A stretch of 64,000 bases of DNA from Glaciecola sp. (GTDB taxonomy: Bacteria; Pseudomonadota; Gammaproteobacteria; Enterobacterales; Alteromonadaceae). The stretch covers positions 1 through 64,000 of the forward strand of contig JAAZVZ010000006.1 in NCBI GenBank assembly GCA_018623155.1. Direction: 5' to 3'. Below the pieces are notes generated by a model. The model had not been told where the DNA came from and made no database searches. It saw only the letters and a program-made list of their open reading frames with translations. Both the position numbers and the translations under genes were made by a program. Positions 1 through 32,422 of this stretch are shown one piece after another; the first letter of the stretch is position 1; every line of letters begins with the position of its first letter.

Positions 1-498
1 AATGCCAAGACTGAATACGTTTATGACATACTGGCACGACTGGGCTTTATGTACTCGTCGAGTACGTATCCGATAGAGCACGATTTGTATGGCGTACCAC
101 ACTGGCCAAGGTTTCCCTACCGTCACCCTTCTGGCATTGTTGAGATCCCCATTCCCACCTTGCGCCAGAACCAGACCAACATAGGCATTGGTGGCGGTGG
201 GTATTTTCGTTTATTTCCTTATTGGTTTTCTAAACGTCGGATCAATGAGTTCTTAACACAAGAACAAAAGCCATATAGTTTTTATTTTCACCCTTGGGAG
301 ATTGACCCGGATCAACCTCGAGTCAAAGACGCCCCGTTAAAATCTAAACTCCGCCACTATGTGAATTTGAATGGCATGGAAGATAAGCTGAACAAATTGC
401 TTCGTGATTTTGCTTGGTCTTCCATGGCAATGGCATATGCCGATGAGCTTTCAGAGCTGGCGCCCAAAGTCCCAATGGATCTGTCGAGAACAGCATGA
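1..498 (+). CDS. XrtA-associated polysaccharide deacetylase, C-terminal part
   Basis: The reading frame is already open at base 1, so only the last 165 residues are here and the start lies outside the window. The visible part matches the C-terminal half of exosortase-A-linked NodB-type deacetylases: a YSSSTYPIEHDLYG stretch (about residues 18-31 of the fragment) and the YFHPWEIDPDQPR motif of the DUF3473 extension. The metal-binding NodB motifs would lie upstream and cannot be checked. The family is thought to remove acetyl groups from exopolysaccharide. The stop overlaps the xrtA start by ATGA at 495-498, so the two genes are translationally coupled. Confidence 0.85.
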   Translation, partial: NAKTEYVYDILARLGFMYSSSTYPIEHDLYGVPHWPRFPYRHPSGIVEIPIPTLRQNQTNIGIGGGGYFRLFPYWFSKRRINEFLTQEQKPYSFYFHPWEIDPDQPRVKDAPLKSKLRHYVNLNGMEDKLNKLLRDFAWSSMAMAYADELSELAPKVPMDLSRTA

Positions 499-2054
499 CA
501 ACAGCGACATACAGTCATCTGAAAGCGTCACAAAGGACGTTGATTTCATTGTGCTTGGTGTTATTGGGTTGGGCGTTCTTCTGCTTTGCCGGAATCAGCA
601 GCGCAGTGGGTATTTGGGGGGGGTCAGAGATCTTCCAGCACTGCTTTTTGGTGATCCCCGGCGCAATTTACTTGATATGGCAAGAGCGCTCCGTTTTGCA
701 ACAGTTACCGATACGACCAGCATGGCAAGCCTTACCTGTTGTCTGTGGGCAGTTGGTGTTGTACGTGGTGGGTGTCGCAGGCGATATTCAGCTGTTTATG
801 CACGTTGCAGCGTTTTCTCTGTTGCCGACGTTAATTTGGCTCGTCATTGGTAATCGTGCGGCATCCCACATCATATTCCCGTTAATGTTTATGCTATTTG
901 CCATTCCGATTGGCGAAGAACTGGTGCCATGGTTACAAGAAATCACCGCTGATATGGCTGTGTACTTGTTGCAACTCACCGGTGTGCCATTGTTTCGCAC
1001 AGGGCTATACATCGAAGTACCTGGCGGGAAGTTTTTGGTTGCTGAAGCCTGCTCTGGAATCAGCTTTTTTATCGCATCAGTGGTGATTGGTAACTTGTAT
1101 GCGTATATGAACTTGTTTTCTTGGCGACGCCGAGTGGGTTTTGTGATGTTATCCATTGCGTACCCCATCGTCGCCAATGCAATCAGGGTGTATGGCATTA
1201 TCTTAACTGGGTATTTGAGTGACATGGAACACGCAGTCGGGGCGGACCATCTTGTGTATGGGTGGGTGTTTTTTGCGGTGGTTATTGTGAGTTTAATATT
1301 CTTAGGTGAGCTATTTCGTTGCGGAGACAGCAAGGTGAACGACTCTGATAAGGCTCATTCTATTGCACACAGTACGTCCACTTCCCCACAATATTGGGTG
1401 GTGATCTTGGTATTAATGTTGTTAGGGGCTGCCCAATGGTGGCAAGCCCAAGTCCAGAACCGAATTGAAGCACCTTGGTCGTATTCGAGTACACCTGTTA
1501 CAGAAGTGATGAGTGTAGGGAATAATGCACAATGGAGAGCCTCTTTACCCAGCACGCCCTGGGCACCGCAGTTTCATCATGCAGCGGCTGAGCAGTTATC
1601 TACCCACCAATACCTTGACCAAGTCTATCAAAGTTACCAAGTCTCGTTTGATGGCAAACACGGTGAGTTAGTGAGTTTCCAAAATAAACTCTATCTGCAA
1701 GATCGTTGGACGTTGGTTGAGCGCAATCAATTCACGTTGAGCGACGGCAGTGAGGTATTGGCCGATCACATTAGCTCTCCACGAGGTGAACAGCAGGTGA
1801 TCTATTATGCGTACTGGTTTGACGGGCAGTGGTACAGCAGCAAAACGCAGGTCAAACTGATGCAAACGTTCGCAGCATTGTTGCATCAAGAGACGGTGAT
1901 GCGGCTGCTCGCCATCAAATTGCCAGTTGCAGATGATGCAGTGGCGCAGCAGCGTCATCAAGCCATCATTAACAATCGCTTTGCTGAGTATCTTACTCGT
2001 ACTGATGCCCTGCGCTTGTCTGGCACGGTTCGACGCTCACAGGAGGCGCAATAA
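495..2054 (+). CDS. xrtA: exosortase A fused to EpsI domain
   Basis: This is an integral inner-membrane transpeptidase-like enzyme that cleaves PEP-CTERM sorting signals during export. The first 270 or so residues carry several membrane segments and the exosortase catalytic set: Cys186 in EACSGIS, Arg231 in NAIRVYG and His252 in the following helix. After about residue 290 comes another membrane segment and a roughly 200-residue periplasmic region resembling EpsI (DUF3485). That explains the 519-residue length, against about 300 for a stand-alone exosortase. The start overlaps the deacetylase stop. The stop shares one base with the next start (TAATG), which has AGGAGG at 2041-2046. The likely substrate in this window is the protein at 24754-25812. 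Confidence 0.93.
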   Translation: MTTATYSHLKASQRTLISLCLVLLGWAFFCFAGISSAVGIWGGSEIFQHCFLVIPGAIYLIWQERSVLQQLPIRPAWQALPVVCGQLVLYVVGVAGDIQLFMHVAAFSLLPTLIWLVIGNRAASHIIFPLMFMLFAIPIGEELVPWLQEITADMAVYLLQLTGVPLFRTGLYIEVPGGKFLVAEACSGISFFIASVVIGNLYAYMNLFSWRRRVGFVMLSIAYPIVANAIRVYGIILTGYLSDMEHAVGADHLVYGWVFFAVVIVSLIFLGELFRCGDSKVNDSDKAHSIAHSTSTSPQYWVVILVLMLLGAAQWWQAQVQNRIEAPWSYSSTPVTEVMSVGNNAQWRASLPSTPWAPQFHHAAAEQLSTHQYLDQVYQSYQVSFDGKHGELVSFQNKLYLQDRWTLVERNQFTLSDGSEVLADHISSPRGEQQVIYYAYWFDGQWYSSKTQVKLMQTFAALLHQETVMRLLAIKLPVADDAVAQQRHQAIINNRFAEYLTRTDALRLSGTVRRSQEAQ

Positions 2055-20879: not shown

Positions 20880-23471
20880 TTAAATCCATTTGCGTAGCAC
20901 TTTATGACGTAGCTTGAGTTGTTTAAGTTCTTTTTGTATCGACCAAGGGTGTTTTCGTTTGAGGCGATAGGGTGAAATATCCTCTGGTGCAATATCGACA
21001 GTCGTGTCCGGTTGTGTTGCCCCACGCGCATGTTCTGAGTGCGTCGTTTTTACATATTTTGCATAGAGATACTGTGCGGATTCCCACTCCATTTGATTTT
21101 GCATGACCAACGCTTGAACGCGCGTGAAAAAACGTTCATCGCTGTTCATTAATGCTTGATGGATGTATTGCTCAATCTCTAATGCTTTGGCCAGATAATC
21201 TTGTTTATCTTGTTTTGATGAGGCTTGAATGGCTGCAAACATCAATACATCGACTTTGCGCATATCTTGCGCAGACCAGGTTTGATTGGGGTATTCCAGC
21301 TCATTTGCTCGGGTCAGGTAAGGCGATTCATGTGCACACATCCATCTGGCAAAACGCCCAACCAGCGTCAACAAGTTTGCACGCGCAGTGGCAAATTTGG
21401 GTTGGTCTGTTAGCCGCTCAATCAGTCGGGTCACTGCTTGAAGCCAGACCGTATAAAACCAATTTTCTTCGATGTTATCCAACTCCAGTTCATCAAGTGA
21501 GTCTTCCAGGGAAACGGTATGTAATGCTACCCATAGCCCATGATGTAAGTATTGTTCGCTTTGGGTCAACAGATGCATATCCAGTATGGCATTGAGGTAA
21601 TTCGCTGTTCCGCGATCCAGTGGATAGCGTCCTGTTTTGACATCTTTTAACCCAGGCACATCACGATTCTTCCATGCGAGTAATCGATAATAAAGCGTCT
21701 CATCGCCTTCATAATATAGGGTTACCCATTGATACAGGGAGGTGACGGCATCTTTGGCGTCTTCGTTACCCGTCAGCAAGTAATAGTAGGCGAGTCCTGT
21801 GGTGTAGCAATGTTGTCCACCTGGGCCACCGCCCCCTGCATGCCCATCGTATACACCGCTTTGTTGGCGAGACGAGTAGGTGCGATGCGAGGACGTTTCA
21901 GCATCGACATAGTGGTCGGTATGCCAAAATAATCCGCCATTGTATTCCGGCTTATCGGCTTGGGTATGGTAGATATCGACATTGATAACATGTTTTGCCA
22001 AATCGTTGGCTAACTCAAAATAACGCACATCCCCACTCATGACATATTGCTTCAATAAGCCAAATAACGGGTCGTATTGATTGTTATAGACGCTGATCAA
22101 AGGCGCGCTGTCAGGATCAAGATAGGCCGACTCATGATCGGCAAACAGGTCGCCATAATGACGAAATCCATATAAATCGATGTGGTCTCGCTTGGCGATA
22201 AATCCATTATGAGTGGATATGACCGATCGAGTGATTTCGTGCCATTTATTCGTCAACATAGAGGGCGCAATGCGCTCAATGGCCTGACAGGAATAGACGT
22301 ATTCAGGGCAAAGAGTACAAATGGGGTTGGGGATTTGGGCACAAGAGTGCACCTGCGTGGATTCTGCCGATATCTGTAGAGTCCGAGTCCATTTTTCCCC
22401 AGGTTGAAGTTCACAGTAGTCCGCTAATTTGCCATTCACTCCGGATAACACAAAGCCATCATCCCGTGAGATATAAGTTGATGGAAAGCGTTGCCAAAAA
22501 TCAGTTAACACATAGTGTCTATTCTGATGCCGGATATACGGCTGCACATTGCGATAAATCGAGATTTGGTCATTGATAAACGTGTATGACTCTGTCGGTG
22601 CAACTTCAGCATTGTGCATCAAATGCGCTCGACTTTGGGACTCACTGCGACCACTGCCAAGCTGTTCAATACGATGAATGTTGGTATAGTAATGCTGGTT
22701 AATACAAACCTGGACATCACTGTGTGGTGAGCGCACTTCAAAATCCAATGCGTCAATAAAGATGGCATTAACATCGCCCAGATCCCACTGCCCATTAGGG
22801 TGGTGAGCGCTATTGGGATTGTGCAACGTTAACGTCATATCCATTGCACCGGTCATAGTGTTAATGGTGACTGTTTCTTCTAAATTCAGTGATACCTCGC
22901 CAGCTTGAGCGTGGCGTAATATGCAAAGCTCGACAGCGAGTGGGGCTTGCTGTCCCAACAGTTCATTAAAAGACCACGAAACGACAGACGTTGGCTCGAT
23001 ACCCTGTTGTGTACCATGCACACGACCACTCACTTTAGTGAGGAGCATCGTTTCCCCGAGCATGATCCCCTCAGGGACCACTGTGATGGTTTGGATATCG
23101 TTCAGAACAGCACAGGGGATCGCGATATCCAGTCGGTTTGTTGAACTGTGTTGTATGGCTGATGGAATGATCTCAGTAGAGCTGTAGCGTTGCAGATATA
23201 AGCTAGATTCACTATTAGGAGCCAGCGATACCGCACAACGAACATGTACAAATCGAACAGAGTGATCAGGCCAAAGAGTTAATACACGACAATGCGTATT
23301 GAGCACTTGCCCTGCTTCATCCACCACGCAGAGCGAGTCTTGGCAGGTGAATTGTCCTTTAGGGCAGGGCACGCTGACTGACAGCAAGTGTTGGTTAATG
23401 GCTGTATTACTTGGGTTCGAGACGGTAGCAAAGGCTGTATTGACACAGCTATCCAGTTCATTTACACCCAT
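20880..23471 (-). CDS. PcRGLX/YetA-like putative polysaccharide lyase
   Basis: An 863-residue protein without a recognisable signal peptide. Residues 20-100 (VSVPCPKGQFTCQDSLCVVD ... TLWPDHSVRFVHVRC) look like the RIFT-barrel N-terminal domain of PcRGLX/YetA exo-rhamnogalacturonan-lyase-type proteins. The middle is rich in beta-strand. Residues of about 400-800 are helical with YNGGLFWHTDHYVDAE and a Gly-rich GHAGGGGPGGQHCYTTGLAYYY loop, fitting an alpha/alpha-toroid catalytic domain. I infer cleavage or trimming of a uronic-acid-containing polymer; the UDP-glucuronate epimerase at 32452 is consistent. It overlaps the upstream GNAT gene by 10 bases. Family assignment is from motif memory only. 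Confidence 0.6.
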   Translation of the reverse strand: MGVNELDSCVNTAFATVSNPSNTAINQHLLSVSVPCPKGQFTCQDSLCVVDEAGQVLNTHCRVLTLWPDHSVRFVHVRCAVSLAPNSESSLYLQRYSSTEIIPSAIQHSSTNRLDIAIPCAVLNDIQTITVVPEGIMLGETMLLTKVSGRVHGTQQGIEPTSVVSWSFNELLGQQAPLAVELCILRHAQAGEVSLNLEETVTINTMTGAMDMTLTLHNPNSAHHPNGQWDLGDVNAIFIDALDFEVRSPHSDVQVCINQHYYTNIHRIEQLGSGRSESQSRAHLMHNAEVAPTESYTFINDQISIYRNVQPYIRHQNRHYVLTDFWQRFPSTYISRDDGFVLSGVNGKLADYCELQPGEKWTRTLQISAESTQVHSCAQIPNPICTLCPEYVYSCQAIERIAPSMLTNKWHEITRSVISTHNGFIAKRDHIDLYGFRHYGDLFADHESAYLDPDSAPLISVYNNQYDPLFGLLKQYVMSGDVRYFELANDLAKHVINVDIYHTQADKPEYNGGLFWHTDHYVDAETSSHRTYSSRQQSGVYDGHAGGGGPGGQHCYTTGLAYYYLLTGNEDAKDAVTSLYQWVTLYYEGDETLYYRLLAWKNRDVPGLKDVKTGRYPLDRGTANYLNAILDMHLLTQSEQYLHHGLWVALHTVSLEDSLDELELDNIEENWFYTVWLQAVTRLIERLTDQPKFATARANLLTLVGRFARWMCAHESPYLTRANELEYPNQTWSAQDMRKVDVLMFAAIQASSKQDKQDYLAKALEIEQYIHQALMNSDERFFTRVQALVMQNQMEWESAQYLYAKYVKTTHSEHARGATQPDTTVDIAPEDISPYRLKRKHPWSIQKELKQLKLRHKVLRKWI

Positions 23472-24604
23472 GTGTGTTCTCCATGTTTCGCTTGGCCAAA
23501 CGTTCGAGCAATCTTGTTAAATGAACGGTGTAATAAGTGAAAGGCTTTGTTTTTGATGAACCTAGCGTGATAAAAGCGATACTGCTCTGTGGACAATGAC
23601 GCCTTATAAGCACACTCTCCCCCCATAAAATCATACGTGTGCACACCATGCTCTGCAAAGTGGGCCATGGCAAGCACGTGGATAACCAAACCTACACGAT
23701 ACTTGTTATCTGAGTCGCAGTAGTTGATTCCGGATAAATAAAAGTAAGCGATTCCGTTCTTGATGAAAAAATACAAATAACCCAGTTTGATTGTGTAGGT
23801 GGTAAATTCAAGGATCTGAATATCAAACTGTCCCGATGCTTCCTGGAATAAGCGTTGATGAAACTCGACGAACTTCGGATTGTCAAAGCCGCTGCCGTAT
23901 TGACTCTCTCGCCAGCGGGCACTGTGAAATTGCCCAGTGTCAGCAAACGCCTCGTTAAGTACACCGCCTTTGTGGACGCGGATACCAATATCGCCATATT
24001 GCTCTGTTATATACCGAATACTGCGATTGATTTGAGAACGTTTGTTTGCAGATAAAGTAGATAGTATTTGGTCAAGCCTGCTTTTGGACGACATTGAGTC
24101 ATTGGTTAATTGTGTACGATACCCCAAAACCGCTTCTTGCTCTATGGCAATTCCATCAAAGTGCTCAAGCGATTCAGGCGCCCATTGTTCGGGCTGAGTG
24201 AGTGATGTATTAATATCAAAGCAATCCATCCTATGGGACTCAAAACACCATTGCACCAGAGCTTGTCGGCACTGAGCAATGTGCTCGGGCAAAGCCAGAA
24301 TATCATTGTATTCTATCCATGCTTGGTCAATTTCTGGGACACCAGATTGATTCAATAATCCCATCTGATAGCTAAGCCCAATATGTTGAATAGACTGCTC
24401 GCCCACGAAACACATCCCAACAATTTCATCGTTGTAAAAAAACTGGACACATAAAGGTGAGTCTACTTCTGTCAACCAGGATGCTTGCCACGCCCAGGTT
24501 AAAAAGGGTCTGCACGGGCTCTTCTCTTGGAGAAAGAGCCAGTGTTGCTTCACTGTATCGTGTGTTGTTGCGTGGTAACGCACAGCGTTTACATAAATCG
24601 ACAT
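23462..24604 (-). CDS. GNAT/FemAB-like acyltransferase (Acetyltransf_6 type)
   Basis: A 380-residue protein of the CelD/BioF2-like GNAT group. It shows LSANKRSQINRSIRYITEQYG near residue 190, ARWRESQYGSGF, and a C-terminal HTYDFMGGECAYKASLSTEQYR, which is the usual last motif of this family. It is cytoplasmic by sequence. It is the first gene of the minus-strand arm; 150 bases separate it from the PEP-CTERM-type gene, whose terminator lies in that gap. A ribosome site AAGGGA is present about 10 bases before the ATG, rather far. Substrate unknown; probably acyl transfer to a sugar of the polymer. Confidence 0.78.
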   Translation of the reverse strand: MSIYVNAVRYHATTHDTVKQHWLFLQEKSPCRPFLTWAWQASWLTEVDSPLCVQFFYNDEIVGMCFVGEQSIQHIGLSYQMGLLNQSGVPEIDQAWIEYNDILALPEHIAQCRQALVQWCFESHRMDCFDINTSLTQPEQWAPESLEHFDGIAIEQEAVLGYRTQLTNDSMSSKSRLDQILSTLSANKRSQINRSIRYITEQYGDIGIRVHKGGVLNEAFADTGQFHSARWRESQYGSGFDNPKFVEFHQRLFQEASGQFDIQILEFTTYTIKLGYLYFFIKNGIAYFYLSGINYCDSDNKYRVGLVIHVLAMAHFAEHGVHTYDFMGGECAYKASLSTEQYRFYHARFIKNKAFHLLHRSFNKIARTFGQAKHGEHTWV

Positions 24605-24698
24605 ACCATCCCTTGTATGTGTCGGTTACAAATCTCTAAAGGCTAATTAGGTTTATCGGCTTGTGACATCAAATATAGATAATTATTTTGTAAATACC

Positions 24699-24723
24699 AA
24701 AAAAGAGAGGCTAACCTCTCTTT
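24699..24723 (-). terminator. intrinsic terminator of the PEP-CTERM-type gene
   Basis: Nine-base stem AAAGAGAGG/CCTCTCTTT with a 4-base loop; read on the minus strand it is followed by a run of six T. It lies 30 bases after the stop of the sorting-substrate gene and before the start of the minus-strand arm, so it separates the two transcripts. Confidence 0.85.
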
Positions 24724-24753
24724 GACTCTTGGGATGATTACTAATGTAATGTG

Positions 24754-25812
24754 TTACGATTTACGTCGACGTAAGCCTGCTAGTGCTAGTAAGCCAGCTC
24801 CTAGAACACCCATGGTAGCAGGTGCGTTGGCGTTGATGACAATGTCATCACTTGCTAGTGCTACAGCACGTGTGGCAACGTTATCACTGCGAGCTGTTAG
24901 TGGGTCTAGAATATTGCGTCTAAAATCATCCCACAAATAATCAGAACCACGTGTGTCGTTACCAGCATTACTTGAATTAACGATAAACTCTGAACATGCA
25001 CCGAATACACAATCCTGGTCATCTGAACCATTGCCTTCATATCTGTTGACATCGTCTACTAGATCTTGAACCGTTTCTGATGTCGTATCGAAATCAGATA
25101 ACAAAGCAATTTCAGAGCCACCGACGAAGTCTAAAGATGCACTAAAGGAAACGAGTCCATTGTTTTGCAAAATCTCAGCAAATGTGGTCCCATACATATC
25201 TGAAAAACTACCTTGGTTGTTGTTTGTTACACCACTGTTTGTAACGTATCCGTCCGAATTCTCCGCATCGGTCGTACCAGATGCCTCAATCAAATTACCG
25301 TTAAAACGAATTTGCGGACTGGTCGAAGTTGAAGGAGCTTCTATTTGATAACTTTGTAAATCAAACGATGCAGCTAACCCCGTACGTGTTCCATTTTGTT
25401 CCGTCAAGAAGACATTGAATATACCGTCTGTGAAGTTGGGTAAAACAAATCCAGAGTCAACAATTGCTTGACCCCAAACAAGATAGTTTAATTCAAGTCC
25501 ATAGGTTGTATTTACTGAGCCTGGAGCACCACCTGAAGTGAAAAAATTACCACTAATGTTGTCAGGTGTGGTAAATCCGCCAACAAAGAGTTGATAGCCA
25601 GAATCAACAATTAAATCGCCAGTGTTGTAACCAGCTTGATTATCTGTGTCTACAATATAGGATTTTGCATTAATGGCATTAGCATCAAGGTCAGTAAATG
25701 AAACGTTGTCATTCGAATCACCGGAACCAAAATCTATCTGAATAATACTCGCGTTCGCTGAGAAAGCCCCAACTGCAGCAAGCGCTAAAAGTGTTTTGCT
25801 ATAAGTTTTCAT
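24754..25812 (-). CDS. exosortase-sorted secreted protein with variant PEP-CTERM signal
   Basis: The product has an N-terminal Sec signal (MKTYSKTLLALAAVGAFSANA, cleavage near residue 22) and an acidic, Asn/Ser/Gly-rich extracellular body of about 300 residues with no enzyme motif that I recognise. Its C-terminal 24 residues (329-352) have the tripartite exosortase-signal layout: NAPAT, a hydrophobic helix, then LRRRKS. The canonical Pro-Glu-Pro is replaced by Asn-Ala-Pro. The ATG at 25812 is chosen because the signal peptide starts there and AAGGAT lies 6 bases upstream; the frame is open further, to 25896. One Cys pair (DCVFGACS) may form a disulfide. It is transcribed alone from a sigma-54 promoter. 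Confidence 0.85.
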   Translation of the reverse strand: MKTYSKTLLALAAVGAFSANASIIQIDFGSGDSNDNVSFTDLDANAINAKSYIVDTDNQAGYNTGDLIVDSGYQLFVGGFTTPDNISGNFFTSGGAPGSVNTTYGLELNYLVWGQAIVDSGFVLPNFTDGIFNVFLTEQNGTRTGLAASFDLQSYQIEAPSTSTSPQIRFNGNLIEASGTTDAENSDGYVTNSGVTNNNQGSFSDMYGTTFAEILQNNGLVSFSASLDFVGGSEIALLSDFDTTSETVQDLVDDVNRYEGNGSDDQDCVFGACSEFIVNSSNAGNDTRGSDYLWDDFRRNILDPLTARSDNVATRAVALASDDIVINANAPATMGVLGAGLLALAGLRRRKS

Positions 25813-25871
25813 ATTTCTATCCTTTTTAAAGATGTTTGTGAACGCAAATATTATTGCATACACAGATACAC

Positions 25872-25888
25872 TGCATAGCATGTGCCAA
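25872..25888 (-). promoter_or_regulatory. sigma-54 (RpoN) promoter of the PEP-CTERM-type gene
   Basis: On the minus strand the sequence is TTGGCACATGCTATGCA: -24 element TTGGCAC, -12 element ATGCA, with exactly ten bases between the invariant GG and GC. The start of transcription should fall near 25861, leaving a leader of about 50 bases before the ATG. RpoN with the PrsK/PrsR pair is known to drive PEP-CTERM genes in exosortase systems; prsK/prsR are not in this window. Confidence 0.85.
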
Positions 25889-26027
25889 ATTCGCAAGATT
25901 TTGTTTTTGTTATGATTTTTATTTATTTTTTGTTTAATAATTGAACGGTTGTAAAAAAGGCTGACAGTGATGATTAGGATAGAAAAAAGAAAAGATTTAG
26001 ACGATGCGAGTCTATATACGTATATGC

Positions 26028-26894
26028 TTAGTTACTTAAGACAACACGTTTGGCGATCTGATACTTAATACGCTGCAATAAACCATCATTGCCAAACGGG
26101 CACCAGGTTTTGACGAGTTTGTTTTTGTACGCATCAAAATGCAGACCGTGTGGTGCGCAAATAATGTCCCCACGATTAAGGAGTATTTTGAGTACATTTG
26201 TGGCATTGACACCCGCACACAATTTGACACCCATAATGACCGACGGGCCTTTTTCGGCTGCAAAATCTGCGCGTGATGGGTCGACTAAATAATCACGTTG
26301 CAATAGAGCAGGGGTCAGTCCCACCATAAATTTTAAGAGCTTTTCTTGTTTGCTGTGACATTTTGAAAAGCCAAAATATTCATCAAAATCCATCGAACCT
26401 GGCATGAAACACAGCATGGCGACGCCAAAGCCAATCGGACCGGTTGTGATGACAGGGATCCCTTTGTCCGCACATTTGCGAAACACTAATTCACGGGCTT
26501 CTATAGCAAAAAAATCCAAGCTGTCTACGTACACATCAACATCGTCTAGAAACGCATCGACATTGTCTTGATTGACGCCAATGGGGAAGGTTTTAATCTG
26601 CGCCTCTGGGTTGATTGAAAGGGTCATCTTTTCAAGCGTATCGAGCTTGGGCTGGTCAATGGAGTCCATGGTGGCACCGATTTGACGATTGAAATTATGC
26701 ACATCAAACTCATCAAAATCTGAGATATGAAACTGAGTGAGCCCTAATCGAGTCAACGTCATTAGGTGTTCCCCTCCAACACCACCCAGTCCGGCAATAG
26801 CGATTTTCTTTGTGGCAAGAAGCGCTTGTTCGGCTTCTGTGACCCAACCAATATTTCGAGAAACAGCAGATTGATAGTTAAATTGAGTGGTCAT
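26028..26894 (-). CDS. ThiF/MoeB-like (E1-like) adenylyltransferase
   Basis: A cytoplasmic Rossmann-fold enzyme that should adenylate a carboxyl group using ATP. It has GLGGVGG (35-41), the acidic nucleotide-site Asp in SDFDEFD, NRQ at 69-71 and a Lys at 83, all E1-superfamily landmarks. The two CxxC zinc motifs of MoeB/ThiF are absent, and no ubiquitin-like partner (ThiS/MoaD with a C-terminal GG) is encoded nearby. The gene lies 13 bases downstream of the exosortase-associated acyltransferase, so the pair probably works together, perhaps on an acyl amino acid or peptide. No terminator is seen after it. Confidence 0.8.
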   Translation of the reverse strand: MTTQFNYQSAVSRNIGWVTEAEQALLATKKIAIAGLGGVGGEHLMTLTRLGLTQFHISDFDEFDVHNFNRQIGATMDSIDQPKLDTLEKMTLSINPEAQIKTFPIGVNQDNVDAFLDDVDVYVDSLDFFAIEARELVFRKCADKGIPVITTGPIGFGVAMLCFMPGSMDFDEYFGFSKCHSKQEKLLKFMVGLTPALLQRDYLVDPSRADFAAEKGPSVIMGVKLCAGVNATNVLKILLNRGDIICAPHGLHFDAYKNKLVKTWCPFGNDGLLQRIKYQIAKRVVLSN

Positions 26895-26907
26895 TCTAAT
26901 ACACTCC

Positions 26908-27735
26908 TTACCCTAGAGACTGCACTTTGAGTTGATTGCGAATGAGATCAAACATGACATTAAAACTAGGAGAGAGATGCTCAAAAAACACATCATGGCT
27001 AATGTAATAAGGTGCGCGAACGCCATGGTAGTATACCGGTGGCCCGATTTGTTTGAACCTGATACCAATAAAAGCCATGCTCTTCGCCAGCCGGGGCTCC
27101 ATCATGACGTAGGTATGGGGAATGCGATGGTTATATACTTGTCCGGCAGCGGCAAGGTATAGACCGATAGCGATAAATGGAAAGCAACGCAACTCATCTT
27201 CTGAATAATCACTTTCGTTAATTACACCGGTCCCTGAACCATCAAATTTATCCGCTTGTCGACGGCGAAAATCAAACGGCACTGCGAGTCGGGAGATCTC
27301 ACACACAGAGCCTCGAGGGAAGTTACTTGGATGATATTCTAGTTCGGTAATGCTCTCTGAACAATAACGCTCAATGGGGAGCACTTCGTTGTCGTGCTTT
27401 GGCCACACAACTCGTACGGTTCCGGCAAACGATTGCGAGCCCAAATGTTGTAAGACGCAATGTAACGAATAGGCATCAAATTCATCTCGTTCTTGTTGCG
27501 TATCATTAGCCGGTTCAAATTCTTCTTCAATACAATAGACTTGGTATCGGATACCGTATACGACATTCTTAAGCTCTGGCTTTTGTGCGTCGAGCATCAA
27601 AAAATACCGAGAGAAATGTTTGGAAATCTTTCTCGCATCGTTGAATTTTAAGAATAACCCCCACAGTCGCTTTAACTTTTTGAGAAGCGAGGTCTGTTTG
27701 GGTTTATTGATTGCAATATCCACACTGATATCCAC
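26908..27735 (-). CDS. PEP-CTERM/exosortase-associated acyltransferase
   Basis: A 275-residue GNAT-fold protein related to autoinducer synthases/N-acyl amino acid synthases. Landmarks are VYGIRYQVYCIEEEFEPAND (about 62-81), DEFDAYSLHCVLQH, GTVRVVWP and EISRLAVPFDFRRRQ. This is the arrangement of the acyltransferase family that occurs with exosortase systems. It probably transfers a fatty acyl group from acyl-ACP to an amino group; the acceptor is unknown. It forms a likely operon with ydcF-like (41 bases upstream) and thiF-like (13 bases downstream). Weakly basic N-terminus; no membrane segment. Confidence 0.85.
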   Translation of the reverse strand: MDISVDIAINKPKQTSLLKKLKRLWGLFLKFNDARKISKHFSRYFLMLDAQKPELKNVVYGIRYQVYCIEEEFEPANDTQQERDEFDAYSLHCVLQHLGSQSFAGTVRVVWPKHDNEVLPIERYCSESITELEYHPSNFPRGSVCEISRLAVPFDFRRRQADKFDGSGTGVINESDYSEDELRCFPFIAIGLYLAAAGQVYNHRIPHTYVMMEPRLAKSMAFIGIRFKQIGPPVYYHGVRAPYYISHDVFFEHLSPSFNVMFDLIRNQLKVQSLG

Positions 27736-27776
27736 TGACTACGGGTCTAGTCAGAAGTGTAGACAACAATTTTGAA

Positions 27777-28568
27777 TTACGCCGAGAATTTGCGAATTTT
27801 TATTGAGATATCGTAGTAAAAATACGAAAGATACTCGTATAACCCCATATACACTCTGTGCAGTGAGTCAATGGCAGGGGCATTTACCTTTAGTTTGATC
27901 TGACCACTGGTAAGAAAATCCACCGGAAAAAGAATTTTGTTGACCAAACCAAGTTGCGACATCAGCAAATCGACTCGTCGCATGTGCGTCGCAGATGAAA
28001 CAATAATTGGATTGCCTTGTGAGAGATAAGCAAAAGCTTCTTGCAATTCGGTCTGTGTGTTAAACGGACCATCTGGGGAACTGGGCACCAGGATAATATC
28101 TTCCTTAGGTATCCCTCGTGCCATAAAGTATTGTGCAGCAAATTCGTTATAAGGCGTTTGGCTTTGTGTCAAAAACGGCCCCCCGGTCAATATGATGGGT
28201 TTTTTGATGTGTTGATACAAAAAATACGCATTACTGAGACGCTGTATGGTTGCTCGGGACCACAAGGCATGTTCGGCTAAGTCACTGTTAGCAAAATAAT
28301 ACCCAGCTAAGGGCAGTATGTGAGTCGCTTCGTGCAAACTTGGGTCAGTTAACTCAATAGACGGAGCAGTATGCTCAAGCGGTTTGAGTAACCAGCTGGA
28401 AAACGTATATTGGGAGCAGACCAACAACCATGCCACGCTCAACACTGCAAAGCGCTGTGCCAGTACGGTTCTTTTGAAGCCCATCAATACAGCTGCAAAC
28501 AGTAATCCTAACAAAAACTGATTGATGGGAGAGCACAACGCGATGATGAGACTTTTCACAGATTTCAT
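27777..28568 (-). CDS. YdcF/ElyC-like (DUF218) envelope protein
   Basis: A 263-residue protein with two N-terminal hydrophobic segments (about residues 7-30 and 38-58) followed by a DUF218 domain: ILPLAGYYFANS, ILTGGPFLTQSQTPYNEFAAQYFMARG and DIILVPSSPDGPFNTQTELQ. The family includes ElyC and SanA, which influence envelope integrity and lipid-carrier-dependent steps. It heads the minus-strand set with the acyltransferase and ThiF-like gene and is divergent from the protease at 28634, with 65 bases between. A role in undecaprenyl-phosphate supply for the polymer is inference. Confidence 0.82.
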   Translation of the reverse strand: MKSVKSLIIALCSPINQFLLGLLFAAVLMGFKRTVLAQRFAVLSVAWLLVCSQYTFSSWLLKPLEHTAPSIELTDPSLHEATHILPLAGYYFANSDLAEHALWSRATIQRLSNAYFLYQHIKKPIILTGGPFLTQSQTPYNEFAAQYFMARGIPKEDIILVPSSPDGPFNTQTELQEAFAYLSQGNPIIVSSATHMRRVDLLMSQLGLVNKILFPVDFLTSGQIKLKVNAPAIDSLHRVYMGLYEYLSYFYYDISIKIRKFSA

Positions 28569-28633
28569 TTAATTAATAAGCAAACGTACCGAAACAGTCT
28601 AGACTAATAGTCAGTTTATTCAAAGGAATGAGT

Positions 28634-29395
28634 ATGAAGAAGTTTGTCTTACTGGTCGCAGTGTTGGTTGTCACCACAATGAGTGTGAGTGCTAATGACT
28701 TAGTCCACACAATTAAAACCGTTAAGAACGGGGTAGTGGCCATAGGTCTGCATACCCCACTCGAATCGAGTGCGCCATCTATTAGAGGCACTGGGTTTGT
28801 GTTTGGCAACGGTCGATACATTGCGACCAATTATCACGTCGTCGCCCAGACGCTCGACCCAAGTATCGTACAAAATTATGTCGCGTTAGCGGGAGAAGGG
28901 CGTGCGCCGGTGATGCATAAGTTATCCATTGTTGCGATTCAGCCGGTTCACGATTTGGCGATATTGCAGTTAGAGACTCCGTTGGCACCCCTCGCGCTCA
29001 GTGAAGATGCGTTTTTACCAGAGGGGTCGATGGTGGCATTAACTGGATTTCCAATTGGTTCTGTCCTTGGTTTATATCCAGCGACGCATCAAGCCATGAT
29101 CGCAGCAATTACCCCAGATGCAATCCCCTTGCACAACACACAAGGACTCAGTCAGCGTCTCATTGATAAACTACAAGCGCCTTCTATGGTGTATCAACTG
29201 GATGGTACCGCCTATCCGGGCAACAGCGGCAGTCCTTTATATTCACCTGTTACCGGTGAAGTAGTTGGGATCATCAACAAAGTCATTGTGAGTGAAGGCA
29301 AAGAGTCGGCGATCAGCACGCCAACGGGGATCAGTTACGCCATACCCGTGAAATACCTTAGAGAACTGGCGCAAAAACACAATATTCAAGTGTGA
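28634..29395 (+). CDS. secreted trypsin-like serine protease
   Basis: A periplasmic or secreted S1-family endopeptidase of 253 residues. The signal peptide is MKKFVLLVAVLVVTTMSVSA. The catalytic triad is visible as His68 (TNYHVV), Asp107 (HDLAIL) and Ser198 (GNSGSP). No PDZ domain follows, so it is shorter than DegP/DegS. The ATG at 28634 is preferred over 28628 because AAAGGA (28622-28627) is then 6 bases upstream. Flanked on both sides by exosortase-associated genes, it may process or degrade sorted proteins; this link is inference. Some 200 non-coding bases follow. Confidence 0.85.
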   Translation: MKKFVLLVAVLVVTTMSVSANDLVHTIKTVKNGVVAIGLHTPLESSAPSIRGTGFVFGNGRYIATNYHVVAQTLDPSIVQNYVALAGEGRAPVMHKLSIVAIQPVHDLAILQLETPLAPLALSEDAFLPEGSMVALTGFPIGSVLGLYPATHQAMIAAITPDAIPLHNTQGLSQRLIDKLQAPSMVYQLDGTAYPGNSGSPLYSPVTGEVVGIINKVIVSEGKESAISTPTGISYAIPVKYLRELAQKHNIQV

Positions 29396-29516
29396 GTCTG
29401 AATGAAGACGATAAACGCAATGACCAAACAACGACTATCGGAAATACTGTCAAAATTTTTTACACTTAACTGTGTGTGCTTTAAAAATAACCATATATAT
29501 CAATAGCTTGATTTTC

Positions 29517-29532
29517 TGGTGTGAAATTTGCA
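29517..29532 (+). promoter_or_regulatory. sigma-54-like promoter of the Tat-protein/HPr-rel-A operon
   Basis: TGGTGTGAAATTTGCA has a perfect -12 TTTGCA and the GG of the -24 element with exactly ten bases between GG (518-519) and GC (530-531). The rest of the -24 element deviates (TGTG for CACG). Transcription would begin near 29543, about 60 bases before the ATG at 29602. The element TGCAGTTTT occurs here and again at 29568. It parallels the stronger site before the PEP-CTERM-type gene. Confidence 0.6.
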
Positions 29533-29601
29533 GTTTTACTAAAAAACCATAAATAAGTAGTGAACACTGCAGTTTTCTCACTGATGTGAAGGAGTGGAAT
29601 A

Positions 29602-30111
29602 ATGGAACACAAAAACGTCTCGAGGCAAGATAACCAAGCAAATGACTCGGTGTCAGCACGCAGAAAATTTTTAATTAAAACGTCTTCAGGCTTAGGGGCT
29701 GCCACAGTCATGGCTGCCTTACCCATTAAGTCAGCTTGGGCAACTGGCGTGGTAAATTCGATTGTTGCCTCTGGCAATGGCTCTGATTTTGCCAATCGTC
29801 GCACCGGCATGGATGTGAACTTTTTGAGCGTACAACAGTTGCAAAGCTTAAATTTGGATCCCAACAGTTACTTAGGATACGAGTCTGAAATCAATACAAT
29901 AAACGCTTCTACGAGCCCTATGATGCCCACGGATGCAGAAATGCGTGCAGCATTTGTGCTTAACCAACTTCTTGATGGAAGTAATGGTATCAATTATCCT
30001 GTTGTGGATCTCAGTGCTGACCCGTCCTTTACGGTGGCAGTTTTTGAAGATAAGATAGCCAATGCATCCGCCATGGACATCCAGATGGCCTATGATGCAC
30101 TCACGGCGTAA
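29602..30111 (+). CDS. Tat-signal secreted protein of the HPr-rel-A locus
   Basis: A 169-residue protein without a family I recognise. The N-terminus carries a twin-arginine signal, SARRKFLIKTSSG (about residues 18-30), followed by a hydrophobic stretch and an AWA cleavage site near residue 49. The mature part of about 120 residues is small, Asn/Ser/Asp-rich and lacks Cys. Strong AAGGAG lies 8 bases before the ATG. It is first in an operon with a PqqD-like chaperone, an HprK-related kinase and a nucleotidyltransferase, so it is the best candidate for the substrate of those enzymes. That would need a folded, cytoplasmically modified protein exported by Tat, which fits; it remains inference. 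Confidence 0.65.
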   Translation: MEHKNVSRQDNQANDSVSARRKFLIKTSSGLGAATVMAALPIKSAWATGVVNSIVASGNGSDFANRRTGMDVNFLSVQQLQSLNLDPNSYLGYESEINTINASTSPMMPTDAEMRAAFVLNQLLDGSNGINYPVVDLSADPSFTVAVFEDKIANASAMDIQMAYDALTA

Positions 30112-30147
30112 ATGCCAAACATTGAATTTGTTTAGAGGATCTCAAGG

Positions 30148-30396
30148 ATGAGTCAATTATCACGTTTTTTACAAGCAGGGGTGCATGTCCACCCTTTTTC
30201 AGACCGCAGTGGTACGGTATTGTTTAATGAAAAAACCACACAAATGCTCACAGTGTTTTTTACCCAGGACAAGCTGAATCAAGTCCTGTCAGATTATTCT
30301 CAACAAATTCCGTTGTCAGCCGATGAATTATCTATGGTCAAATCGTTAATTCGCCAAGAGTTTATTTATCAAGAACCACTGCAACAGGCGAGCTAA
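30148..30396 (+). CDS. PqqD-family peptide chaperone of the HPr-rel-A system
   Basis: An 82-residue protein with the winged-helix PqqD pattern: a beta-strand start (VHVHPFSDRSGTVLFNEKT), a helix reached by the usual T-Q-M-L step, and a C-terminal LIRQEFIYQE. PqqD-like proteins bind leader peptides of RiPP precursors and present them to modifying enzymes, normally with a radical SAM protein. No radical SAM gene is present here. It sits between the Tat protein and the HprK-related kinase, matching the PqqD member of the so-called HPr-rel-A system. Confidence 0.75.
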   Translation: MSQLSRFLQAGVHVHPFSDRSGTVLFNEKTTQMLTVFFTQDKLNQVLSDYSQQIPLSADELSMVKSLIRQEFIYQEPLQQAS

Positions 30397-30417
30397 GCAA
30401 GCTAAGAGACGCTGACA

Positions 30418-31290
30418 GTGACAGCAACTTATGATGTATTGATACCGCCGTTTAACTTTCGGGTGCAAACCGATATTGCCTTGGTGGAACAAAACCTCCA
30501 TACCCTATACGGGCAACAGGTGTTGCCTGAAGGAACTTTGCCTTTTATCGACTATCATATTGCGGTCCGCCACTCGACAGGCTTGAGACGGTGGTTTCGG
30601 CCACAAGCCTCGTTTTTTTGTGACCAACACGAACCGCTTAAGCCTTTGCATCTGAGCCAAGCGTTTGCCATGCTGGAATGGGGGATGAATTGGACCATTG
30701 CTGCACATGAACTGCAGCATGTTATTGTGCACTCTGGGATCTTAGCCAAACACAATCAAGCCATTCTCTTCCCCGCACCTCCGGGGTCGGGTAAGAGCAC
30801 AATGTCGGCGTATTTGGCGTTCAATGGTTGGCGCTTGTTATCAGATGAAATGGCCGTGATCGATCCAGAAACATTTGAAGCAATCCCTTTTGCCAGACCG
30901 ATTTGCCTTAAAAATAAGAGCATTGATTTGGCGCGGTCGTGGTTCCCTGATGCGCCGTTTTCTACTGTTGCAAAAGACACTCATAAGGGAGATGTTATTC
31001 ACTTATCCGCACCGCTTAACGAAGACGATCGCTTTGCGCCAGCGCGAATTAAAGGCATTGTGTTTCCTAAGTACAATCCAGATATCACAGACATACAGAT
31101 CACCCAACTCAACCAATCTCAAGCCATGCATGAACTTGCGGACAATGCCTTCAATTTTTCATTGATGGCACATCGAGGCTTTAAGGCATTAACGCATGTG
31201 GTGGAGCAAGCGGACAGTTATCACATTGAATATCGCGATGCCGCTGACGTCAAGGCCTTCTTAGAACAAGAGGTATTGGAATATGTCTAA
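30418..31290 (+). CDS. HprK-related kinase A
   Basis: A cytoplasmic P-loop protein of 290 residues resembling the catalytic half of HPr kinase/phosphorylase. Walker A PAPPGSGKST lies at about 119-128 and the acidic LLSDEMAVID at 140-149. The last third contains KGIVFPKYNPD. The start is a GTG, 21 bases after the PqqD-like stop with AAGAGA upstream; no better start exists. Real HprK phosphorylates a Ser of HPr; no HPr is encoded here, so the Tat protein or another partner may be the target. The 3' end overlaps the nucleotidyltransferase by 8 bases. Confidence 0.82.
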   Translation: MTATYDVLIPPFNFRVQTDIALVEQNLHTLYGQQVLPEGTLPFIDYHIAVRHSTGLRRWFRPQASFFCDQHEPLKPLHLSQAFAMLEWGMNWTIAAHELQHVIVHSGILAKHNQAILFPAPPGSGKSTMSAYLAFNGWRLLSDEMAVIDPETFEAIPFARPICLKNKSIDLARSWFPDAPFSTVAKDTHKGDVIHLSAPLNEDDRFAPARIKGIVFPKYNPDITDIQITQLNQSQAMHELADNAFNFSLMAHRGFKALTHVVEQADSYHIEYRDAADVKAFLEQEVLEYV

Positions 31291-32422
31291 GCTCGGTCAA
31301 CAAGACTTAATAAGACTCTTCGTCATGCCTCACACCGCACTGGAATATAATGAGACACAGTGGTCGAGTATCGTGCAGTTATTGCGTCATGAAAAACTCC
31401 TCGCTCGATATGGTCATCGCTTGGCCGATCATCACTTGTTAGAAGAATTGCCCTTATCTGTTCAGCATCATTTTAACAACGCGATGGATGTCACCACACG
31501 GCATATTCATCAAGTTCATCATACGGTCAAACACATCCATCGTTTGTTGGGCGAGTCTTATCAAATGATTGTCTTAAAAGGTGCGGCGTATACATTGTTG
31601 GGAGATGCCGTCAGCCGAGGGCGTATTTACAGTGATATTGATATTTGGGTGCAACAATCCGATATTGCCGGCGCTGAACAGCAACTCAAGCTGACGGGAT
31701 GGTTCAGTGATGAGATCGATGATTATGATGACCGGTATTATCGAGAATGGGCCCATGAGATCCCACCGATGTATCACGGTGGGACCGGTGCAGTCCTGGA
31801 TATGCATCATAATATTGTCCCTCCCGTGTCGGGACGTGCTGTGGATGTGAGTTTTTTTACTCAACACATAGAAGTCACCTCTTCGGGGGTGAAGGTGTTG
31901 TCGCTGCCAGCACGAACACTGCACAGCACCATTCATTTGCTGTTCAATGAAGAATGTGAATACGCGTTGCGTGATTTGACTGATTTGGTGTTGATGTTTG
32001 AACAATTCTCATTGGATGATTGGGATGGTTATCTGGCGCTTGCTGAACAAACTGGGTTTGCTAGAGAAGGTGTCATGGCCATCGCATTATGTCAAAACAT
32101 GTTGAGTCTCTCGGTACCAGAAGCCATAGCAAAACAAGCCGGACGGATACAAAAGAAAGTATCAACACGCGCATTAGTCGCTGTTTATCAACGCATTATG
32201 GCCAGCTCACATCCATTAGTGGCGAATCGCATAAGTAAAGTATGTCAAAGATTCATTTGGTTAAGAGGACATTATTTGAAAATGCCCTGGACATTATTGC
32301 TGTATCACATGATGATGAAGGCGTACCGTAGCACAGCTCAAATAGTACTAGGTAGACATATCTTTACCAAGACTGATCCTGAGTTATTGGGAACTCTTAA
32401 GACGGGACAGGATGTAAAATGA
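31283..32422 (+). CDS. nucleotidyltransferase-fold protein (NTP_transf_5-like)
   Basis: A 379-residue protein with a nucleotidyltransferase active-site pattern: VLKGAAYTLLGDAVSRGR followed by SDIDIWV at 117-123 supplies the paired acidic residues that bind metal. The rest is helical. The family is annotated as uncharacterised nucleotidyltransferase and repeatedly accompanies HprK-related kinases and PqqD-like proteins. It may transfer a nucleotide to a protein or sugar. It overlaps the kinase gene by 8 bases and is followed after 29 bases by the UDP-glucuronate epimerase. Confidence 0.75.
   Translation: MSKLGQQDLIRLFVMPHTALEYNETQWSSIVQLLRHEKLLARYGHRLADHHLLEELPLSVQHHFNNAMDVTTRHIHQVHHTVKHIHRLLGESYQMIVLKGAAYTLLGDAVSRGRIYSDIDIWVQQSDIAGAEQQLKLTGWFSDEIDDYDDRYYREWAHEIPPMYHGGTGAVLDMHHNIVPPVSGRAVDVSFFTQHIEVTSSGVKVLSLPARTLHSTIHLLFNEECEYALRDLTDLVLMFEQFSLDDWDGYLALAEQTGFAREGVMAIALCQNMLSLSVPEAIAKQAGRIQKKVSTRALVAVYQRIMASSHPLVANRISKVCQRFIWLRGHYLKMPWTLLLYHMMMKAYRSTAQIVLGRHIFTKTDPELLGTLKTGQDVK

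Follow-up and report, generated by a model that had tools for sequence, protein, structure and literature searches.

In Bacillota, the combination of a RiPP recognition element (RRE), an HprK-like kinase, and a nucleotidyltransferase (NTP transferase) is a known tailoring module for ribosomally synthesized and post-translationally modified peptides (RiPPs), namely the linear polyphosphorylated peptides (LPPs) and the paeninodin-type lasso peptides (PMC13381572, PMC9266682). The target of LppK in the LPP core is Ser3, and no phosphorylation was detected on the S3A, S3T, or S3Y variants (PMC13381572). LPP precursors, 35-200 amino acids long and encoded in capsule loci, are conserved in their N-terminal region and vary at their C-termini; the role of the HprK/NTP-transferase RiPP modules in these loci is stated to be unknown (PMC13381572). 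The kinases PadeK, ThcoK, SyanK, and PsmK phosphorylate a C-terminal serine, some of them several times, and the hexoses on the serine of pseudomycoidin require PsmN (PMC9266682). Here we analyze a 64,000-nucleotide stretch of DNA from Glaciecola sp. (NCBI GenBank assembly GCA_018623155.1, contig JAAZVZ010000006.1, positions 1 to 64,000; hereafter, the window), which encodes this trio beside a protein with a signal for twin-arginine translocation (Tat).

Bufferins are an example of RiPPs whose precursors carry export signals, and modification must precede export; preliminary results of the bufferin authors indicate that the signal belongs to the recognition sequence (PMC12452194). Bufferins and other MNIO-modified RiPPs differ from the system in the window by using Sec rather than Tat, and MNIO chemistry acts mostly on cysteines instead of phosphorylating serines.

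By its kinase, its gene order, and the fold of its RRE protein, the cassette in the window is a divergent member of the HPr-rel-A system of NCBIfam. The names of the HPr-rel-A families (TIGR04352, kinase; TIGR04353, PqqD family peptide chaperone) give no substrate. We found no paper on HPr-rel-A, on TIGR04352, TIGR04353, or HprK-related kinase A, or on an exosortase together with PqqD (subscription literature was outside the search). We propose, with somewhat better than even confidence, that this is a modification and export cassette dedicated to one substrate: guided by the RRE protein, the kinase would phosphorylate a serine motif in the Tat protein, which would then be exported. The newly proposed parts of the system are the dedicated substrate and the serine motif as a candidate modification site.

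Members and conservation of the cassette

ORF calling of the window gave four tightly packed open reading frames (ORFs) on the + strand between 29602 and 32422, in agreement with an original prediction that was made from the sequence alone. That prediction had the cassette begin at 29517, and the first ATG lies 85 nucleotides further on. The transferase ORF overlaps the kinase ORF by 8 nucleotides.

We compared this arrangement across the loci of the kinase's top 80 named relatives (the named loci), across 274 genomes sampled evenly over the class (the class sample), and across 295 genomes of the window's family (the family sample). By their titles, the named loci are mostly from beta- and gammaproteobacteria, along with Malonomonas rubra and metagenome-assembled genomes of Acidobacteria and Magnetospira. 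Using a hidden Markov model (HMM) built from 60 of the 80 named loci, we found a match to the N-terminal module of the Tat protein just 5' of the RRE-kinase pair, on the same strand, in 79/80 (the reading frame of the L071 match is doubtful). A PqqD-like ORF and a transferase homolog were each found in 79/80 as well. L036 lacks both the Tat match and the PqqD-like ORF by these tests. The co-occurrence and conserved order that the original prediction had proposed to check are thus present in 79/80 loci, and with the same gene set recurring this often, the layout is not due to chance. TIGR04352 was above its cut-off in 27/274 genomes of the class sample and in 113/295 of the family sample. Among the 27 loci of the class sample, 26 have a Tat match (E 3e-28 to 0.021) and the exception, L023, is cut by a contig end. 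The original prediction was to be abandoned if most such loci lacked the Tat protein; instead, the great majority have it.

The kinase matches TIGR04352 (HprK_rel_A) with 298.6 bits, where the cut-off is 200. Its His, Lys, Asp, and Glu (His105, Lys126, Asp143, and Glu144 in the window) are invariant in 16/16 sequences. The region around the P-loop aligns with HprK from L. casei, with the His, the Walker A Lys, and the Asp in register, at a low score (E 0.0018). In contrast to HprK, the cassette's kinase does not have HPr as its operon partner. The original prediction took HPr to be absent, but one HPr-domain protein is encoded elsewhere in the genome; the genes that precede it look like what we take to be ptsN and rapZ.

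The transferase matches PF14907 (NTP_transf_5) with 126.6 bits, well above the cut-off of 31.2, and its Asp118, Asp120, and Asp173 are invariant in 11/11 sequences. Judging from the fold, these aspartates are probably catalytic. The identities that the original prediction gave to the kinase and the transferase therefore hold, and the active-site residues are retained, except that the kinase has Glu144 in place of a second Asp.

The 82-amino-acid protein is more divergent. It has no match of its own in Pfam or to TIGR04353 (the latter at E 0.1). In a chosen set of 25 PqqD-like ORFs at the equivalent position of other loci, all 25 match TIGR04353 at E <= 0.1 and 11 match PqqD in Pfam. An alignment of window-type proteins matches these 25 by hhalign (probability 82%, E 1e-5). 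A profile of the canonical PqqD-like alignment finds the RREs of lasso peptide systems, TbiB1 (E 3e-4) and TfuB1 (E 0.0075), although designed helical proteins reach similar scores. For the 82-amino-acid protein, the predicted structure has a mean predicted local distance difference test (pLDDT) score of 90.8 and the order E-E-E-H-H. The four best structures by VIA-align are all RREs: 6jx3_B (Z 6.3, root-mean-square deviation 3.6 over 65 residues), 5v1u_A (Z 6.1, 3.1 over 69), 5v1v_A (Z 6.0, 3.3 over 70), and 8t19_A (Z 5.9, 3.3 over 67). The fifth row drops to Z 4.7. Foldseek with the same model gave no match at E <= 0.001. With three strands followed by helices, and a structural match to leader-bound RREs, the RRE fold of the modeled protein is well supported, and the model agrees with the PqqD fold of the original prediction.

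The original prediction noted, correctly, that no radical SAM (S-adenosylmethionine) gene lies beside the cassette. Among frames of more than 150 codons in the window, the only CxxxCxxC motif is at about 59906, away from the cassette, in a frame that we take to be RlmN. This had seemed a puzzle for a PqqD-like protein. Since the trio of RRE, HprK-like kinase, and NTP transferase is known from RiPPs of Bacillota (PMC13381572, PMC9266682), the absence of a radical SAM enzyme is no paradox.

Membership in HPr-rel-A thus combines a kinase above the curated cut-off, conserved order and spacing, and partners that match TIGR04353 in every chosen locus, although the window's own PqqD-like protein is too divergent for that model. 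The adjacent nucleotidyltransferase that we see at the other loci is present in the window too.

The cassette appears to work like the LPP and paeninodin-type lasso tailoring systems, and it is a member of neither. Like the LPP genes of Bacillota (lppA-K-B-S-D-N), it has a discrete RRE, an HprK-like kinase, and an NTP transferase, and LPP genes also lie in polysaccharide loci. The LPP precursors share with the Tat protein a conserved N-terminal part, a serine soon after the cleavage site, and a variable C-terminus. However, LPPs use an SpI-like peptidase and an MsbA-like transporter (PMC13381572), whereas the cassette has a Tat signal, and the Tat protein has a folded domain of about 120 residues (in the model of the L055 relative) and no [YW]xxP leader motif. 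No SpI-like leader peptidase is among the ten ORFs scanned at 23462-32422, where the nearby protease is trypsin-like, and LSGG[QEM], a motif test only for an MsbA-like transporter, occurs in no window frame of more than 150 codons. Lasso tailoring by PadeK, PsmK, and PsmN likewise combines an HprK-like kinase with a nucleotidyltransferase (for pseudomycoidin; PMC9266682) and with discrete RREs (PMC13381572), but no lasso cyclase or B2 peptidase is among the ten neighbors scanned. A conserved C-terminal serine, as in lasso precursors, can be rejected: 14/89 Tat proteins end in serine, and the window's protein ends in ALTA. We place the cassette outside both groups because no SpI-like peptidase is among the ten neighbors scanned, and because the MsbA-like transporter motif, [YW]xxP, and the C-terminal serine are missing.

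The Tat protein and its serine motif

The Tat protein of the window has the twin-arginine signal ARRKFLIK and a cleavage-like site, AWA, and TatC is found in the same genome (E 1.6e-67), as expected for a Tat substrate. No family of NCBIfam, Pfam, or PADLOC matched it above the cut-off. Among 110 Tat proteins, the two arginines are kept in 109/110 and 110/110 rows.

Right after the signal, the consensus of the 110 proteins is C-[ST]-x-S-[GA]-x-x-S-[GA]-N-x-S, which contains the motif S-x3-S-x3-S. In an HMM-fitted alignment, serine is present at the three motif columns in 102/104, 105/105, and 94/100 of the rows with a letter there. The first column has one threonine among its 104 rows and the second has none, while serine and threonine are swapped at other columns of the same alignment, such as column 99 (47 Ser and 37 Thr). 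In the window, the motif serines are Ser53, Ser57, and Ser61; assuming cleavage after Ala47, they are residues 6, 10, and 14 once the signal is removed. In canonical members, the motif is flanked by a pair of cysteines at columns 76 (97/106) and 95 (85/97), which might form a disulfide; the window's protein lacks them.

We also counted the motif without the alignment. The strict motif S-x3-S-x3-S occurs in 86/110 proteins within the 53 residues examined, compared to 7.5 for shuffled sequences, and plain S-x3-S occurs in 106/110, compared to 57. We also set aside 30 family loci that were used for no model, of which 29 could be parsed (in L147, the script found no RR). These 29 rows form 23 groups by a rough identity measure. 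The strict motif is present in 27/29 (shuffles, 2.2), S-x3-S-x3to5-S in 29/29 (shuffles, 5.7), and plain S-x3-S in 29/29 (shuffles, 16.3). In the class sample, the strict motif is in 18/26 Tat rows.

The set of 110 omits the copies L001, L028, L032, and L112 and the decayed L118. L003 and L062 gave the same Tat stretch and both were counted; the L057 row was fitted to the wrong upstream stretch, and the frame of L071 is doubtful. For precursor coordinates, we dropped 17 of 109 Tat rows, for which either a start could not be found or the span searched held no S-x3-S. Of the 92 that remained, 72 were aligned in alignment A4 and 35 in A5. The set of 89 precursors further omits L018, L057, and L071.

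The signal and the motif form the conserved module of the protein. Across the 72 rows of A4, mean pairwise identity is 0.469 in this module and 0.280 beyond it. When we used the window's Tat protein as the query against 98 relatives, we found matches in 9 genomes, including its own and one with a 96% identical copy. The other relatives match at parts of residues 2-68 only, which is at most the signal and motif, apart from one weak match at 27-91. A few residues of the mature protein are also nearly invariant (Trp86, Phe97, Ala140, Leu143, and Asn144 in L055 numbering). In the model of the L055 protein, a confident helical domain of about 120 residues begins near residue 71. The signal and the motif are modeled with low confidence, and this stretch is probably flexible. 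No structure in the PDB stood out as a match to the mature domain (the best was E 1.2 for Foldseek and Z 2.8 for VIA-align), which does not show that the fold is novel. At L018, the Tat frame (778-1008) has just 77 codons and ends three residues past the S-x3-S-x3-S motif; it is either a minimal precursor or a broken gene, and the search with the N-terminal module runs over stops there.

That search, whose query was alignment A5 (15 of its 35 rows are from the class sample itself), gave matches in 24/27 cassette genomes, and in 19 of these E was at most 3.1e-16. In each of the 24, the best match lies at the cassette. G134, G015, and G259 gave no match, and an extra weak match was found in G122, G067, and G237 (E 0.002-0.006). 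Of the 21 genomes with an exosortase and no cassette, five had weak matches, none below 7e-6. The idea that the cassette serves many substrates encoded in trans, as in PEP-CTERM systems, is therefore unsupported.

Neighboring genes and the link to exosortase

In the class sample, an exosortase is present in 25/27 cassette genomes versus 67/247 of the others (Fisher test, 2e-11); the two without a detected exosortase are G052 and G057. In the family sample, the counts are 111/113 versus 97/182. These tests ignore relatedness. Where the exosortase and the cassette are on one contig, 56 of 66 family genomes have them within 70 kb (the median of the 66 is 43.7 kb); in 44 further genomes they are on different contigs. 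The cassette is statistically tied to exosortase. The features of the window are listed in Table 1.

Table 1. Coordinates of the cassette and its partners in the window
Feature	Position	Strand	Basis
Tat-signal protein, 169 aa, candidate substrate	29602..30111	+	ORF; homologous N-terminal module 5' of the kinase in 79/80 named loci; TatC in own genome
Tat signal peptide, residues 1-47 (R20, R21; probable cut after A47)	29602..29742	+	RR columns 109/110 and 110/110
S-x3-S-x3-S motif, Ser53/Ser57/Ser61, candidate modification site	29758..29784	+	alignment, unaligned counts, held-out loci
PqqD-like/RRE-fold protein, 82 aa	30148..30396	+	hhalign; model; RRE structures are top 4 of fold list
HprK-related kinase A, 290 aa (H105, K126, D143, E144 retained)	30418..31290	+	TIGR04352; alignments
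NTP_transf_5 nucleotidyltransferase-fold protein, 379 aa (D118, D120, D173 retained)	31283..32422	+	PF14907; alignment
Trypsin-like serine protease, apparent Sec signal (H70, D109, S200), optional partner tied to exosortase/cassette loci	28628..29395	+	Pfam scan, homolog searches
Exosortase (context)	495..2054	+	PF09721 match at 564-1313; about 28 kb from the cassette, same contig

A protease gene lies directly upstream of the cassette, and the three residues of its catalytic triad are in place. Homologs (we counted matches of 1e-44 or better) are present in 22/27 cassette genomes, in 6/21 genomes with an exosortase alone, and in 0/18 with neither, so its distribution follows that of the exosortase locus and the cassette combined. 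As it was not found in some cassette genomes and is present in some without the cassette, we do not consider it an obligate fifth gene. In G249, the protease match is about 0.4 kb from the exosortase match.

A sister genome of the same genus, G279, has a decayed cassette (L118), with a complete protease ORF, a truncated Tat start, and a transferase fragment. There is no kinase match in this genome, and the exosortase is still present.

Two other arrangements were seen. In L018, L020, and L027, the apparent transferase gene is divergent from the Tat-RRE-kinase operon, and L020 and L027 also lack the serine motif; loci of this kind may represent a second architecture, in which a different site is the target. 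In L029-L031, HprK-like genes that score below the threshold are beside a PqqD-like ORF, with no Tat match. L029 and L031 have an NTP_transf_5-like gene 5' of the PqqD-like ORF, on the same strand. L029-L031 are a related but different system.

Elsewhere in the window, a ThiF/E1-like protein (NF006077) is encoded at 26028-26894, beside an exosortase-associated acyltransferase. Homologs are found in 13/80 cassette loci, where they flank the cassette at its transferase end. Another gene near the locus (24754-25896) encodes a secreted-looking protein with a weakly PEP-CTERM-like C-terminus (11.0 bits in Pfam, which is below the cut-off). A role in anti-phage defense was considered and rejected, as a PADLOC scan of the four cassette proteins gave no match at E <= 1.

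A proposed pathway and its rivals

We propose the following order of steps. In the cytoplasm, the 82-amino-acid RRE protein would bind the Tat precursor, probably by way of the conserved signal region, and would offer the flexible stretch that directly follows the signal to the HprK-related kinase, which would put one or more phosphates on the serines of the motif (in the window, Ser53, Ser57, and Ser61, with the middle one as the most likely target). The NTP_transf_5 protein would then probably attach a nucleotidyl or hexosyl group to the resulting phosphoserine. Once modified, the Tat protein would leave via Tat and end up in the envelope system of exosortase and exopolysaccharide. We infer the binding, the phosphorylation at the motif, the second modification, and the final location from the evidence above. 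Tat would be a suitable route for a protein that needs to be folded and modified before export. As candidate chemistry, then, the cassette probably puts phosphate, and perhaps a sugar or a nucleotide, on conserved serines near the front of an exported protein.

Several observations weigh against this pathway. Four loci of the class sample (L009, L020, L025, and L027; 4/26) encode the Tat protein, the RRE, and the kinase and yet lack the motif. These loci are the main evidence against the serine motif as a universal target. The spacing of the motif is altered in L003, L004, L008, and L012. So, the search for conserved serines that the original prediction called for did uncover a strongly conserved motif, but not in all of the Tat proteins. 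Also, the alignment of 110 rows was fitted to an HMM built from 60 of the loci; the 72 rows of A4 were preselected for S-x3-S, so that the invariance of S58 there is partly by construction; and plain S-x3-S alone is weak evidence. For the RRE, VIA-align warns that a Z below 8 may reflect a common arrangement only, and our values are near 6. The [YW]xxP motif, by which RREs bind the leaders of LPPs and lasso peptides, precedes the serine motif in 0/89 Tat proteins, the window's included. The kinase has a glutamate where lasso kinases are said to carry the second aspartate of a His-Lys-Asp-Asp set (PMC9266682). And the review leaves open whether PsmN is itself a glycosyltransferase (PMC9266682).

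The motif-less loci fit another explanation, in which the serines serve folding, attachment to the envelope, or O-glycosylation by a different system, and the target of the cassette is some other part of the Tat protein, or a polysaccharide or lipid carrier. The other nearly invariant residues of the Tat protein and the exosortase context are also compatible with this. But it would not explain why the first two motif columns hold serine and hardly ever threonine when other columns swap the two, and an RRE fold suggests that the client is a peptide. We consider this explanation unlikely. It is more improbable still that the kinase acts on an HPr-like protein encoded elsewhere and that the Tat protein is merely a co-regulated envelope protein. 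The HPr-domain protein of this genome is a possible target, which counts against our proposal, and the kinase profile does align with HprK around the P-loop. However, a target in trans leaves unexplained the adjacent RRE, the constant Tat neighbor (79/80), and the motif-bearing Tat gene, which, across the 48 genomes searched, has no strong match outside a cassette.

Alternatively, the system could make a linear polyphosphorylated RiPP of Gram-negative bacteria, with a short N-terminal core released from the Tat protein, perhaps by the trypsin-like protease, and the rest of the protein as a carrier. The length and layout of LPP precursors and their capsule loci (PMC13381572) would agree with this, as would the short Tat frame of L018 and the enrichment of the protease in cassette genomes. 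Yet the C-terminal part of the L055 protein is a confidently modeled helical domain, unlike a disposable tail, and the protease occurs without the cassette too and was not found in 5/27 cassette genomes. We give this version very little credence.

We still prefer RRE-guided phosphorylation of the serine motif followed by Tat export, and with it the interpretation in the original prediction is partly supported. A more specific form is that HPr-rel-A is a Tat-coupled phosphoglycosylation (or nucleotidyl-phosphoserine) system. Guided by an RRE, the N-terminal serine cluster of a folded protein would be (poly)phosphorylated and capped ahead of Tat export, and the modified N-terminus would link this protein, the only one of its kind in each genome, to the exopolysaccharide layer that depends on exosortase. 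We offer this as a tentative idea that may well be wrong.

In either form, a system that had a name and a blank for its function gains a specific candidate substrate, a cluster of residues, and an order of steps that can be tested. In the more specific form, it would be the first case, in the literature that we searched, of a Tat substrate modified under the guidance of an RRE, and the Gram-negative counterpart of the LPPs of Bacillota. If our proposal is correct, RRE-guided chemistry would extend from small peptides to folded Tat substrates. It also links two unexplained things: the HprK/NTP-transferase RiPP modules in the capsule loci of Bacillota, and an additional set of genes found along with exosortase across groups of proteobacteria.

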